Of a stretch of DNA of 64,000 bases, positions 3,330-9,745 are shown one piece after another (within the stretch, counting starts at the first letter, position 1; each line of letters opens with the position of its first letter). The stretch spans positions 1,313,001-1,377,000 of the forward strand of contig OY101122.1 of assembly GCA_956465555.1 (NCBI GenBank). The letters are read 5' to 3'. Position numbers and translations under genes: made by a program. Under the pieces are notes generated by a model, which was not told the DNA's origin, did no database searches, and saw only the letters and a program-made list of their open reading frames with translations. The stretch comes from Nitzschia sp. pyKryTriq1. Its lineage: Eukaryota; Bacillariophyta; Bacillariophyceae; Bacillariales; Bacillariaceae.

Positions 3330-5515
3330 TTATGTCTTCTTTCCTTTCTTGGCAGGGGCCTTATTAGCCTTGCCAGCCCCAGGCGCAGGTTTGCGTCCCT
3401 TTTTCTTGAGCTTCTCTTGCAACTTTCGCATCTCGGCCTCTTCATCCTCACCTTCCGATTCTTCCTCCTCTACATCACCGTCCTCATCAATGGCATCCAA
3501 ATCATGCGGATCTCGTTCTCGCTTGCCCCCACTCTTCTTCGGTTTGGTCGTCCCGAACTCTTCATCGACCAGAGCCTGACTCTTGTGACTGCCCTGGTTG
3601 TATCGTCGAGTGAAGGCTGCCTTTTGCTTGCTATCCAAATCTGCAAAACTAGAGGAGCTTTCTCCCTTTTGGGCCAGCTGAAATTCATCCAACTTTTCCA
3701 TGACATCTTCTCGACTCAATCCATATTCATCCATCAGCTCGATAATCGCATCATTTGCTTCGTCACTCCTGTCACTGCCCTGGAAATAATTGAGGAATCG
3801 TTCGCGAAAGACTGGCAAATAAGATTCGCGCAATTGCTGACTGTCGGCACTAATCTTGAAATTCATGTGGTGGTGCAATTCATTCAGGATTCGTTGCTTC
3901 TTGTTCTTGGAAGAATTCTTTCCCATCCATGCGGTGAATTCTGGGTACCCTGGAAGCATGCCCCCAGCCTTGCCACCGGCGTGGAATCCAGTCTTCACTG
4001 CCATCATCGCAGTAGCAGGCAATAGACTCCAGTTTTGATCCCCCGATCGAATATTGTGCTCGATCATTGCATAGTCGGACATGCTGGCGGCTGCATCATG
4101 CATGCGATTTAGAAATATCATTTCGGCAACGGGATTGTCCGCTTTCTTGACCAATCCGTATTGCGATTGCATCACCCGTGGATAGTTTTGTTGCACCAGA
4201 AGTCCAGTGAAACTGTAGTCGACGAAAAAGGCATCTGAGCGTCGAAACAACGAATCAACCTGCGTCTTGGCATCTGCTCCTGGCAAACCCCTTCGGCCTT
4301 CCATAATTGTCTTTGCGGCGTCAAAGAGACTAACTCGCAGGATCTCATCCTTGTTGATGGAATTTTCACGTTCCTTGAGATTCTTAAATGTCAACGAGTC
4401 ATCCCCAGTTCCTTTCTTTTGCGCCCACATTTGCAAGACATTCAAAACTTGTCGAACGTCATTACCACACGATTCGGCAATGGCTTCGGCTGCATTCCGT
4501 TCGACTGACAATCCTTCCATTTCGGCAATTCGGACCGCTCGATTTGCCATGATATTTTTCGTTGGTCGTTTGAATCTCAAATCCATACAATATGGTAGCA
4601 AGGATTTCATCTTTTGCGATTGCCGATCATTGCAAATACAAATGATGGGGACCTTGGACTTTTTGATCATTTGAATGAGTTCGGCCATACCGCTTCGGTC
4701 TCCCGCACCCATGCCGTCGACTTCGTCCATAATGATACAGCGCAAAGTCTTTTGGCTCGAGGAGGGCTTGGGTTTAGATCCCGCGATTTGAAATCCAAGC
4801 GACTGCGATCCCGTCAAATCTCCGAGTTGTTCCTGGAGAGCCTTTTTGGAACGTGCATCGGACGCATTGAATTCACGCAAATCTCGGCCTGCCTCCTTGG
4901 CTACCAGCGTTGCTGTTGTGGTTTCTATAGAGAAAAAAGACGATGCTTATGAGTCCCGACGACGCGAATAGTATTTTCATACCCCATCCACCAATCAAGA
5001 ACAAACAAAACTTACTCCCGATTCCAGGCGGCCCCGAAAGAAGTGCCGCCTTCCATGGCCCCTTGGGGTTCGAGAAGGCCTTATTATACGATTTTGGGTT
5101 GTTGAAGGTGCGTTCCCAACTGTTCAACCAAGTGGCGAGTTTCTGCACATTATCCTTGTTGCCCAAAATATCCCTTGTCGATGTGGGTGCATGTCGATCG
5201 ACCCACAATTGATTGAGCGTGGAATTATTATTATTATTATTTGCAGATGAAGTAGCAGTCGGCGTGGTGGCTGCTACTGCAGCTCCTCCTCCTTTGCTGT
5301 AGGGGTTTGCTGCTTTGGCATAGGGATTGCTGGCAGCAGCAGCTGGAGCGGTACCACCCGACGCGGCTGGTTTCATGGCATACGGATTGTTGGCAGGCTT
5401 CTTGGCGTAGGGATTGACATAAGGGTTGACTTTGGGAGCCCCCGCCTTGAGTGGAGGAACAGTGGATGCACTGGCGGTACCAGGGGCAACGGGTTTGGCG
5501 CTACTCGTTGTGGAT

Positions 5516-5548
<33 letters not shown>

Positions 5549-6729
5549 ACTTTTTGATCTTCAGGGATCCCTGCTTGTTTCTTTTTCAAATTCTGATACA
5601 AATGGCACAACCCATACAATTTCGATTCTCCAATCACCATGGGAATCTTCTTCTCCAAGGCCGCTTGATATTTTTTCCCTTCTTTTGCATCACGTCCATC
5701 CTCCAGAACGTGTCCTACTACCAGAAAGCTGGTTTTCCCAGACACACTCGTCGTTACTCGCCCTCCCAACGTTTTGATAAGATCCGAGGTATCATCGCGT
5801 CCTAGATTCTCCAAAATACCCGTCAGAACAAAGGTCAATCCTGCCAAACATTCGGGAACTACCGCATCCTTATCGACGTCAAAGGAATCTCGCTCCAAGG
5901 AGGGTTGAAGAATAGGAGTTTTCTTCGTAGTATCCGGTGTCTTGGAGCGTTTGGGACTACTACTGCTCCAACTAGCAGTAGGCGTCTTGGTCACTGAAGG
6001 AGATGGAGTTTTGGTAGCTGCCCTCTTCGCAGGACTGGATCGCTTGGGCGGTGAATGATGATGATGATGATCCTCCACCAGTTCCTCGTCTCCACTTTCG
6101 GAGGCAGACGGGACGTACACATCGTCTTCCTCCTCCTCTTCCTCGTCGTCGTCATCTCGGATACGTTTCTTGGCCGGACTGCTTTTCTTCTTGGGTGGTG
6201 GTGAAGAAGATTTGCTCTTCTTGGGCGAAACCTTCGTAGTAGTTTCCTCAGCAGGTGCTGGTGCGGTTGCTGGCTTCTTTGCTTTGCCTGCCGCCGTCTG
6301 AGAAAAGTAGTCGGATGCTGAGATTTCTTCCACTTCTGTTTTTTTCGTGGTCGCCGCTGTCGTAGACTTGAGTTTCTTTTGAGGGGACGGTTTGCTATAG
6401 GATTCTTCCTCCTCGGAGGACGACGAACTTTCAAATCCCTTCATCTTTTTGTCCTCGCTTTGTTTACGTCGCTCTTCCTTTTTCGAGACGACGGGTTTGG
6501 TGCTGGCAAGAACAGCGGGCTTGGTAGTAGTGCAAGTAGAGTTTACTACCTTGGCCGCATTGTCAATCTTGGCCTTTTTGGAGCGACTTGCTGGCGGCGG
6601 TGGAGCAGCAGTGGCACCAGCACCACCAGCAGGAGCAGCTTGCTTTTCCGTATTGTTGGAAGTCGGTGCCTTGTTGCTGCCCCCCGCCTCGGGCTTTTTG
6701 GCAAAAAAGGAACGAATATCCATGGGCAT
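3330..6729 (-). CDS. RFC1: Replication factor C large subunit
   Basis: Two exons, complement(join(3330..4924, 5016..6729)), give 1,102 residues; human RFC1 has 1,148. RFC1 is the large subunit of the clamp loader that opens PCNA and places it on primer ends in replication and repair. The N-terminus MPMDIRSFFAKK matches the conserved MDIRKFF start of RFC1, a degenerate PCNA-interacting motif. A long acidic, basic and Lys/Ser-rich linker with putative NLSs follows. A BRCT domain begins near residue 295 (LAGLTFVLTG) and a NPYAKK repeat region follows it. The AAA+ domain has Walker A SGPPGIGKTT, split exactly by the 91-bp intron (GGGA/GTAAGT...ATAG/AAACC), then FNASDARSKK and Walker B CIIMDEVDGM. 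The C-terminal collar domain ends in a Lys-rich tail. Start could be 6729 or 6723 (MDIRSFF). Divergent from the PNKP-AKR fusion. Confidence 0.95.
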
Positions 6730-7156: not shown

Positions 7157-7475
7157 ATGACGAGTAATAATCAAAAGATCAGCGGTATTGATGGTTCTTC
7201 TGCGACGACGGAACAAGAACCAAAAGCCAAAAAGGCGAAAACCGCCGCGGCACTGCAAACCAATCTCTTTGCATTTTTTGCCTCCAATGTTCCGACGCCA
7301 CCCAAGAAACGAAAATCAAAGGCTAACGACGTCGACCACGACGCCACCGCCACTACGGAAACCAAGAAATTACCTGCTGCTGACAAGGCATCTGATGTGA
7401 ATGATGATATGGTTGCTGCTGCTGCGGCTGCTACTGCTGATGTTGGTTCTTCCTCGGTTGCGAATACTACGTGTA

Positions 7476-7506
<31 letters not shown>

Positions 7507-9745
7507 GACTTTGGATGCTACCGGTACTACAACATGTACGATCCCACCTCCCATGATTCCTACACCCACCCCTACACCACGTTCCATCACTTGGCAATCC
7601 CTTCATGACAACTTTGTCATGGTGAGACAACCAGCTCCTACAGGAGGCAGTAGTATGAGTTTCTTTTCGAAACCATCCACAAAAAATGCTACTACTTCTT
7701 TGCAACAAGAACAACCACTCAAGCGCACCAAAGTGGCTGCCATTGATTTGGATGGTACGCTTGTTGTCTGGAGATGTGCTGGATTTCCCAGTGCCTTGTC
7801 GCATTATGAATTGTGGAATTCCCAGGTTCCTTCGAAATTGCGGGAATTGTACGACAAGGAGGGTTATCAGATTGTTCTTGTATCCAATCAAGCCGCGATT
7901 CAAAGGGCACATACCGGCAAGAAAGCACAACTTGTTCAGAATGTGATGAATTGGATTGCCGCCTTGGTCGATCGGCCTATATATGCTGTACTGTCGACAC
8001 AGTCGTCCAAAAAACAAGGCTCCTTTCATAAACCCAATCCGGAACTTTGGAAGGTGGCTCAGAAACGACTTGGCGGTGGTGATGGTAATGGTGATGGCGG
8101 CTGGGATATTGCTTCGAGTTTCTTTGTAGGAGATTCGGCCGATCCCGAGGATCCGCAGGGAGGCGTCGATGCCCAATTTGCCAAGAATGTAGGAGGTTTG
8201 TATGGAACACCCTTGAAATTCTATACTCCCACGGAATTCTTTGGACCCAGTGACCATGATCGTCGCCAACGCCAACGACAGCTCACCCAATCGTGTCCAC
8301 CGCCCCCGTCGACTGTCACGCAAGCGAGATCGGCATTGTTGGGGGGATATTGGCAAGGACCTATTTTATTGATTCTTTGTGGAGTCCAAGGGAGTGGCAA
8401 AAGTACCTTTTGTGAATCCATTCTTTCTTCGTCCAAGAACGAACAACATTCATCACAGACGTCGTGGGTCCACTTGAGTCAAGATACCATTCAGAATGGA
8501 AAACCGGGCAAACGAGAACAAGTGGAAGACGCGGCACGAGTGGCTTTGCAAAAAGGTCAGTCTGTCCTTGTCGATCGTATGCATCTGACGGTGGAACAAC
8601 GGAGCCATTTTGTAGCAATTGGAGTGGAAGAGTCGGCGCCTGTACATGTAGTCGTTTTGAATCCACCCCGGTCGGTCATTGCCAAACGGGTTCGAGAACG
8701 AACCAATCATCCAGGAAAAGTGCAAGGCAACGATGGCGTGCGACGGGCCTTGCAATCGATGGATCAATGGGTACTTCCCACCTATACGACAGAAAACGAC
8801 ATCACTCTGATTTCTTGTGCCTCGACGGAGACGGCTGTCTCGAGACTCGCCCATCTATATGCCAAGACACCTCCTCCGCTGCAGCTCCCCGCCACATCCT
8901 CTGCCACGCTCTTCGCGGAGGGTTCGGAAAGTGTGCAACTGCCAACCGTATGCTTGGGAACCATGGGCATTGGAAAACGGATTGCTATCGAAACGATAGA
9001 ACGTGCGGTGTCTCATGGGTTTCGAGCCATTGATACCGCACCGACCTACAATAATGAAGACAAAGTGGGGGAGGCTCTTGCGAGCTTTAAAACCGACAAT
9101 GAAATTGTTTGCGTTGCCAAGATTCCCAAATCTGTGGTCCAACCCAACCAGGTTCGAAGCGCTCTATCCAAAACTCTGGATCAGCTCCAACGATCAAGTG
9201 TCGATCTATTGCTACTTCACTGGCCCTGTGATGTCATGGCTGCTGGAACACTGGTGGATGTCTGGAAGGAAATGGAAGCCTGTTGTCGGGGAGGACAATG
9301 CAAGGCCTTGGGGGTCTGCAATTTCAATGTTGTAGCACTTAGTCAACTCTTGGCCCAGGCTTCCATTCCTCCTGTGCTCAATCAAGTGGAACGCCATCCC
9401 TTGTTGGCTCAACTAGATCTTGTTGACTTTTGCGAGCGTCACAATATTCACCTACAAGCCCATACCCCGTTGGGGCAAGGCAACGCACAGTTGCTGGACA
9501 ATAGTGTTGTGAACGAGGTGGCTAGCGAAACACAAACCTCTCCGGCTGCTGTCGTGCTACAGTGGAATCTACAGCAAGGTGTCTCGGTCGTGCCCAAGTG
9601 CCGCAGTGAAGCGCATATGCAGGATGTGTTCCAACGGAAACCGTTGACACCCGAACAAATGAAGCGCCTGGATGCCCTTGATTGTGGAAAACGGTTTGTT
9701 GCGCCGCCGTTTATGGTCGGTGCAGCTCCGTACTGTTGGAAATAA
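7157..9745 (+). CDS. PIP-box + PNKP-type DNA 3'-phosphatase/5'-kinase fused to aldo-keto reductase
   Basis: One uninterrupted ORF of 862 residues. (1) Residues 34-41, QTNLFAFF, form a canonical PCNA-interacting PIP-box (QxxLxxFF) beside basic clusters KAKKAKT and PPKKRKSK that look like NLSs. (2) Residues about 60-190 are low-complexity and Ala-rich. (3) Residues about 192-365 are a HAD phosphatase of the polynucleotide 3'-phosphatase family: IDLDGTL with Asp197/Asp199, VLVSNQAAI, HKPNPELW, FFVGDSADPED. (4) Residues about 403-565 are a polynucleotide 5'-kinase: Walker A GVQGSGKST and LSQDTIQNG. (5) Residues about 593-862 are an aldo-keto reductase with the tetrad positions Asp626, Tyr631, Lys655 and His688, plus GVCNFN and NQVERHP. 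The cofactor motif normally IPKSxxxxR reads VPKCRSEAH, slightly diverged. Phosphatase and kinase together process damaged DNA ends; the reductase fusion is, to my knowledge, unusual. No FHA or zinc-finger domain precedes the phosphatase. Confidence 0.93.

Follow-up and report, generated by a model that had tools for sequence, protein, structure and literature searches.

A diatom protein family joining a PNKP-type phosphatase-kinase to an aldo-keto reductase, and its possible role in healing 5'-aldehyde DNA ends

We analyzed a 64,000-nucleotide stretch of the genome of the diatom Nitzschia sp. pyKryTriq1 (contig OY101122.1, positions 1,313,001 to 1,377,000; hereafter the window), in which a single frame at 7157–9745 of the forward strand encodes a PIP-box tail, a PNK3P phosphatase, a P-loop kinase and an aldo-keto reductase (AKR), in that order. 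This fusion of a PNKP-type unit with an AKR is a widely conserved diatom family. We propose that it may be an end-healing enzyme whose AKR domain reduces the 5'-aldehyde ends of C5'-oxidized breaks to 5'-OH for the kinase, a reading to which we assign a probability of about 0.35.

A conserved phosphatase-kinase-reductase fusion in diatoms

The frame runs open from ATG to TAA over 862 amino acids without an intron, and is the sole PNK3P match in the source genome (40.65 Mb, 20 contigs). Its extent and layout are supported by the frame itself, by Pfam and by homologues; all coordinates below are window positions on the + strand unless indicated. The low-complexity N-terminal tail contains the PIP box QTNLFAFF (residues 34–41; 7256–7279) and the basic stretch KKRKSK (residues 50–55; 7304–7321), which we take to be nuclear-localization-like. 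The HAD-type 3'-phosphatase spans residues ~190–365 (7724–8251), with the nucleophile motif DLDGT at residues 197–201, and matches PNK3P (PF08645) over residues 192–362 (E 3.2e-21; 76.2 bits against a Pfam cut-off of 22). The 5'-kinase (residues ~401–560; 8357–8836), with Walker A motif GSGKST at residues 412–417, Asp443 and Asp473-Arg474, matches the P-loop kinase family AAA_33 (PF13671) over residues 404–535 (5e-14; 53.3 bits against 27). The AKR domain (residues ~592–862; 8930–9742) matches Aldo_ket_red (PF00248) over residues 598–841 (4.8e-42; 144.4 bits against 24) and solved structures such as YvgN (3f7j, 3.1e-42). Its catalytic tetrad consists of Asp626 (9032–9034), Tyr631 (9047–9049), Lys655 (9119–9121) and His688 (9218–9220). 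A preliminary description of this DNA, made from its letters alone, had placed QTNLFAFF, IDLDGTL (residues 196–202), GSGKST and the tetrad, all at the correct positions.

As the preliminary description had suggested, we looked for other proteins matching both PNK3P and Aldo_ket_red. A homologue search with residues 150–862 gave 169 matches, and PF08645 and PF00248 occur together in 119 of the 120 listed; the exception, P0115, has no PNK3P. Every fused match from the homologue and profile searches that bears an organism name comes from a diatom, in searches that scored candidates sharing short words, two of the three limited to 8000 candidates, and that sampled non-diatom eukaryotes thinly. The named members comprise the pennates Nitzschia, Cylindrotheca, Epithemia, Mayamaea, Pseudo-nitzschia and Amphora, the centrics Thalassiosira, Cyclotella, Conticribra, Stephanocyclus and Skeletonema, and Attheya; lineages were looked up for Attheya and Mayamaea, and the remaining genera are grouped as we take them to be classified. 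One fused member, P0109, comes from the laboratory diatom Cyclotella cryptica. Three MMETSP transcript open reading frames (ORFs) labelled 'complete' (P0019, P0040 and P0114) carry both domains, indicating that a single transcript spans the fusion. An assembly or lost-stop artefact is ruled out by the recurrence of the fusion among the matches listed and in these transcript-derived ORFs. The single-ORF fusion reported in the preliminary description is thus genuine, conserved and transcribed.

A profile search of the family returned 112 matches. Eight family-like PNKP matches had no AKR call: two extend into the AKR (P0134, P0136), three end within the kinase (P0141–P0143), one has an apparent frame change, judged by eye (P0144), and two stop after the kinase (P0139, P0140). 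Two further matches, P0145 (Trichoplusia) and P0148, are remote PNKPs that lack an AKR. Some models contain the AKR alone, namely P0174 (from the jgi 'Psemu1' genome) and P0184 (Phaeodactylum tricornutum, called partial); among 112 AKR matches, 33 start before residue 570 of the window protein (P0001), in the kinase or linker, and nine start exactly at Met603. These AKR-only models likely reflect introns, cut contigs or partial models, although the genes may be separate there. We rejected separate neighbouring PNKP and AKR genes as the arrangement in relatives: one such pair, P0141 and P0152, both on contigs of 18,743 bases, looks like a single gene that gene calling broke in two within the kinase. 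In a scan for viral relatives, 76 stretches fitted a pattern and none encodes a relative.

The three enzymatic parts are conserved to a similar degree, with mean identities to P0001 of 0.54 (HAD), 0.55 (kinase) and 0.52 (AKR), against 0.22 in the linker before the AKR and 0.19 in the tail (15 comparable rows). Walker A residues K415 and S/T416 are present in 137 of 137 rows, as is D443, and both HAD aspartates in 124 of 132. The AKR tetrad, all four positions of which the preliminary description had recognized in the window protein, is complete in all 127 rows of readable length. Given this, and an identity on the level of its partners, the AKR does not look like a drifting domain.

We assessed the tail in 118 rows with a Met start and at least 60 residues of tail (19 of 137 rows were dropped), against 200 rounds of shuffling. 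The motif Qxx[ILM]xx[FY][FY], which we take as the PIP consensus, precedes the phosphatase in 86 of the 118 tails, compared with a mean of 0.07 and a maximum of 1 for shuffled tails; elsewhere in the same proteins it occurs once in 80,344 residues. The PIP box is therefore kept across the family within a poorly conserved tail. The pattern K[KR]x[KR], our assumed signature of the basic stretch, is found in 109 of the 118 tails (31.7 from shuffles). Among rows with organism names, eight of ten from pennates or Bacillariaceae have the PIP box and none of seven from centrics and Attheya, a distribution that points to a pennate trait. A PCNA_N match is present in the source genome; binding of PCNA through the PIP box is predicted, and the protein is probably nuclear.

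Upstream of the fusion gene, at 3330–6729 of the reverse strand, is RFC1, which encodes the large subunit of the clamp loader for PCNA. The two genes are head to head, their starts ~430 bases apart, and a promoter region in common is possible. The RFC1 N-terminus, MDIRSFF, resembles what we take to be a PIP-type motif. A search of the genome for XRCC1 gave no match; its control was equally silent, and the result was not used.

A family-specific reductase pocket and a bacterial counterpart

The AKR domain belongs to the AKR superfamily by its Aldo_ket_red match and its Asp-Tyr-Lys-His tetrad. We compared the 127 fused rows with 36 stand-alone AKRs picked from the AKR-domain matches. In sixteen columns a residue is fixed to 85% or more in the fused family and to no more than 25% in the stand-alone set. 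Ten of these columns adjoin catalytic residues, belong to the cofactor site or fall in the C-terminal loop: P629 and T630 (by Tyr631), P657 and K658 (by Lys655), D692 (near His688), C721, Q767, H769 and F852-M853. Pro657-Lys658 (9125–9130) is found in 119 of 127 fused rows and in none of the stand-alone AKRs, most of which have Trp-Asn there. Position 721 (9317–9319), where a nicotinamide-binding Ser is expected, is Cys in 108 of 127 fused rows against three of 36 stand-alone AKRs, and position 769 (9461–9463), that of the nicotinamide-stacking aromatic residue, is His in 126 of 127 against seven of 36. The source genome has 39 AKR matches including the fused gene, 38 without it (counted exon by exon and so not a gene number); among the 12 other AKRs that were readable, two have the Cys of position 721, one has the His of position 769 and none has both.

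A third residue at the cofactor site, His820 (9614–9616), occupies the position of the 2'-phosphate-binding Arg. Cys721, His769 and His820 presumably correspond, in numbering and in role, to Ser159, Tyr209 and Arg268 of AKR1B1. We considered His820 as a mark of NADH preference, by analogy with an engineered 2,5-diketo-D-gluconate reductase, a case not among the papers listed in a literature search. This candidate was dropped: the residue is His in 126 of 127 fused rows, but 13 of the 36 stand-alone AKRs share it, so that it is no special mark.

The profile search also returned P0149, a protein with the reversed domain order AKR-kinase-HAD. Scanning genomes with the whole of P0149 gave 25 stretches, none of which was confirmed. 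When only the kinase and HAD segments of P0149 were used, the scan found 16 loci; at nine of these, in eight genomes, a single frame encodes all three domains (AKR, kinase and HAD), above the Pfam cut-offs. The other seven loci are four Lokiarchaeal kinase-HAD genes alone, one with another N-terminal part (L005) and two partial HAD matches. The Lokiarchaeal proteins (L003, L006, L007 and L008) are free-standing, ~320 amino acids long and related to the bacterial fusions; an HHH_5 protein adjoins one of their genes. Besides P0149, the AKR-kinase-HAD proteins come from metagenome-assembled genomes titled Deltaproteobacteria, Gemmataceae, Planctomycetota, proteobacterium or bacterium.

In 282 genomes sampled from the phylum of one locus (L010), we found 26 matches from 21 genomes, with an AKR in the kinase frame in 21 of the 26. 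The HAD match in these 21 frames is full in 12, weak or partial in eight and absent from the frame in one. Three of the remaining five matches reach the edge of the available sequence (L024, L028, L031) and two have no AKR (L030, L032). Setting aside five genomes known from the earlier scan, an AKR is joined in 15 of 19 matches. Because all bacterial queries derive from a fused protein, these proportions do not give frequencies among bacteria in general. Five genomes (G004, G005, G012, G143 and G236) each hold two distinct kinase-HAD matches (L025/L041, L019/L042, L029/L043, L026/L040 and L024/L044), and nine of these ten frames contain an AKR.

All 25 bacterial fused AKRs have the tetrad; 20 of them have Cys at the C721 position, and 22 have His at the H769 position. 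By contrast, readable stand-alone AKRs from the same genomes have neither (Cys in 0 of 13, His in 0 of 10). Fused AKR domains are also near neutral, with mean charges of −0.6 in diatoms (n = 127) and −0.7 in bacteria (n = 24), compared with −7.9 for the stand-alone set (n = 36) and −3 to −11 for five others.

We built an AKR tree of 73 rows, 18 of them from the diatom side (including the partial rows P0200 and P0204), leaving out bacterial domains shorter than 230 amino acids. The diatom-side fused AKRs form one clade (support 100/100), and the bacterial fused AKRs lie on the far side of the tree, alongside some stand-alone bacterial AKRs. A single origin of all AKR-PNKP fusions was rejected, since forcing one fused clade gave p = 6.4e-6 in an approximately unbiased test on this one tree. 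To judge from the sequences, the bacterial fusion apparently arose independently of the diatom fusion. In an unrooted kinase-HAD tree, the whole AKR-free members (the Lokiarchaeal proteins, L030 and L032) group together beside the fused ones (91/89); being unrooted, this tree does not give the direction of the change, gain or loss of the AKR.

Proposed reductive healing of 5'-aldehyde ends and its alternatives

Oxidation at C5' pairs a 5'-aldehyde on one side of a break with a 3'-phosphate on the other. In the mechanism that we propose, the AKR domain would reduce the nucleoside 5'-aldehyde end to a 5'-OH with NAD(P)H, the kinase would phosphorylate the resulting 5'-OH, and the HAD domain would remove the 3'-phosphate across the break, so that the healed nick could be ligated with no nucleotide lost. 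In most members the PIP box would tether this probably nuclear enzyme to PCNA. Reduction of a 5'-aldehyde would yield the very 5'-OH on which the kinase acts, making this end the best fit for a reductase paired with PNKP. That bacteria have a comparable trio in the opposite order speaks for a functional link between AKR and PNKP. We infer the substrate and the cofactor of the AKR from the anatomy of the protein, and the step from that anatomy to a 5'-aldehyde is of the same kind. The preliminary description had suggested aldehydes at or released from damaged DNA ends, for example after AP-lyase cleavage, as possible substrates of the reductase. The general idea is plausible, and strengthened by the apparently independent bacterial fusion; the AP-lyase ends are not the best fit, their reduced products suiting neither PNKP activity. 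As a tentative extension, given slightly less weight than the enzyme's proposed role itself, reductive healing could be a repair step of its own, a direct reversal with at least two origins, one in diatoms and one in bacteria, which would have started from different AKR branches and ended with the same two cofactor-site residues.

An excerpt of a 2012 review (PMC3825254) lists the nucleoside 5'-aldehyde among radical-induced ends, gives 5'-aldehydes with 3'-phosphate or 3'-phosphoglycolate as the ends of breaks made by Zinostatin or calicheamicin, and calls the removal of 5'-aldehyde ends at such breaks essentially unknown. The conversion of a 5'-aldehyde terminus to a 5'-OH by borohydride is described in the available part of PMC4227780. 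According to section 2.5 of a 2025 review (PMC12564780), C5' is the most readily oxidized position of deoxyribose, the nucleoside 5'-aldehyde persists for days and may also decay by itself, and the sole repair named is strand-displacement long-patch repair, which is not specific to the lesion. Among the open-licence matches listed, judged by titles and the opening of abstracts, no described AKR-PNKP enzyme was found, in agreement with the preliminary description, which knew of none; the available excerpt of a dinoflagellate paper (PMC7460133) names AKR and PNKP apart, with no fusion.

Several observations weigh against reductive healing of 5'-aldehyde ends. That such an end fits the pocket is an assumption of the proposal, and free carbonyls are another potential substrate of the AKR. 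Nor are the fused AKRs basic; their net charge is close to zero. Cys and His at the two cofactor-site positions are not exclusive to fusions: in the stand-alone set, three AKRs have the Cys, seven the His and one (P0236) both, and both occur together in just 18 of 25 bacterial fused AKRs. P0236 moreover branches between the two fused groups, so the Cys/His pair may be an old state kept twice and not gained twice. The HAD aspartate pair is incomplete in eight of 132 rows (P0015, P0031, P0072, P0084, P0091, P0099, P0114 and P0122; both are gone in P0084), which may reflect a lost phosphatase or an error of sequence or alignment. Nine bacterial AKR-kinase frames have a weak or partial HAD match (L034–L039, L042 and L044) or none (L043), perhaps with a different activity in the phosphatase's place. 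Among 294 genomes of the planctomycete phylum of L012, four matched, three being known fusions and one partial, with no new fusion. The ten ORFs neighbouring the bacterial genes at four loci, chosen by eye, gave no repair context: they include a glycosyl transferase, a PhoD phosphatase, an S41 peptidase and an aminotransferase, and five have no family. The PIP box announced in the preliminary description is conserved far above chance, but is not universal, being absent from 32 of 118 tails. Finally, transcripts ending or starting between the two domains had been named there as evidence against a fusion; the three complete ORFs span both domains, but another MMETSP ORF, P0185 (384 amino acids, also 'complete'), starts inside the kinase and contains the AKR domain only.

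Of the alternatives, the one that survives best, although we consider it unlikely, is that the AKR disarms small carbonyls freed at breaks, such as base propenals, pentenals and methylglyoxal, protecting the DNA or the repair complex; the domain would then be tethered but not end-specific. Its nearest solved relatives, YvgN and 2,5-diketogluconate reductase, are general carbonyl reductases, and there is a weak match to a methylglyoxal reductase model (39.3 bits against a cut-off of 550). However, with 38 other AKR matches the genome already provides for general detoxification, the pocket hardly varies within the family and differs from that of stand-alone AKRs, and the joining of a bacterial AKR to a kinase and a phosphatase suggests a substrate in common with PNKP.

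We rate lower still, as improbable, the possibility closest to the preliminary description, that the AKR caps abasic sites, 5'-deoxyribose phosphate, 3'-unsaturated aldehydes or 3'-phosphoglycolaldehyde and so blocks cross-links. A reduced abasic sugar resists lyases, and the alcohol products could be used by neither the kinase nor the phosphatase, which would leave the fusion to PNKP unexplained; this stands against the placement of a reductase at the break that the fusion would provide, and against the description of such aldehydes as break-side lesions in excerpts of two reviews (PMC12564780; PMC3825254).

More doubtful again is that the AKR serves mainly to sense NAD(P)H or as a scaffold, adjusting the activity of the kinase and the phosphatase. 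The beta subunits of potassium channels, which resemble AKRs, tune their channel in this way, and the altered residues C721, H769 and H820 could favour cofactor binding over turnover, but a catalytic tetrad retained in every readable diatom row and every bacterial fused AKR argues against such a role. Least likely of all is that the enzyme heals the ends of RNA, for example oxidized or cleaved RNAs, and not of DNA: bacterial members lack a known DNA context among their neighbour genes, and cleavage by hydroxyl radicals yields 5'-aldehyde ends as its main product in the RNA described in the available part of PMC4227780, but most diatom rows have a PIP box and a basic nuclear-type motif.

If 5'-aldehyde ends are the substrate, as we favour, one purified protein would make a direct-reversal route for these ends testable.

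Comparison with known end-healing enzymes and reductases

PNKP-type end healing and the AKR superfamily are known parts; the bacterial AKR-kinase fusion in reverse order is new. The diatom protein has the hallmarks of PNKP, a PNK3P HAD domain with DxDGT and, downstream of it, a P-loop kinase with GxGK[ST]. It falls below the NCBIfam equivalog cut-offs of TIGR01663 (77.7 of 502.8 bits) and TIGR01664 (71.8 of 107.65 bits), and is therefore PNKP-like and not an equivalog. Like eukaryotic PNKP (mouse PNKP, 1yj5), it has a HAD phosphatase followed by a P-loop kinase with both active-site motifs. It differs in its PIP-box tail and C-terminal AKR, in having no FHA domain, the domain of animal PNKP (none in a Pfam scan of the protein at E 1), and in its kinase motif, DRMH as against DNTN in mouse PNKP. 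When the phosphatase-kinase part is compared with the PDB, the top match is the P-loop kinase 9drz, at 61.2 bits and over the kinase only, ahead of mouse PNKP at 54.2 bits. Further matches of the kinase (8357–8836) are proteins of Parachlorella and Macadamia (P0146, P0147) in which a kinase is fused to a HIT-type domain. Bacterial Pnkp (TIGR04075) likewise has an end-healing P-loop kinase, but the diatom protein reaches 30.5 bits against a cut-off of 750, in the kinase part only.

For the reductase, the nearest solved AKRs, YvgN (3f7j) and the 2,5-diketo-D-gluconate reductases, match over the whole domain and share the catalytic tetrad. Unlike them, the diatom AKR is fused to PNKP, forms its own clade (100/100), has family-specific residues in its pocket and cofactor site, and scores 174.6 bits against the DkgA NCBIfam equivalog cut-off of 425. 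The bacterial AKR-kinase-HAD proteins combine the same three kinds of domain in each chain, mostly with the same Cys/His at the cofactor site, and differ from the diatom family in their reverse order, their branch of the AKR tree and their DNTY-type kinase motif.

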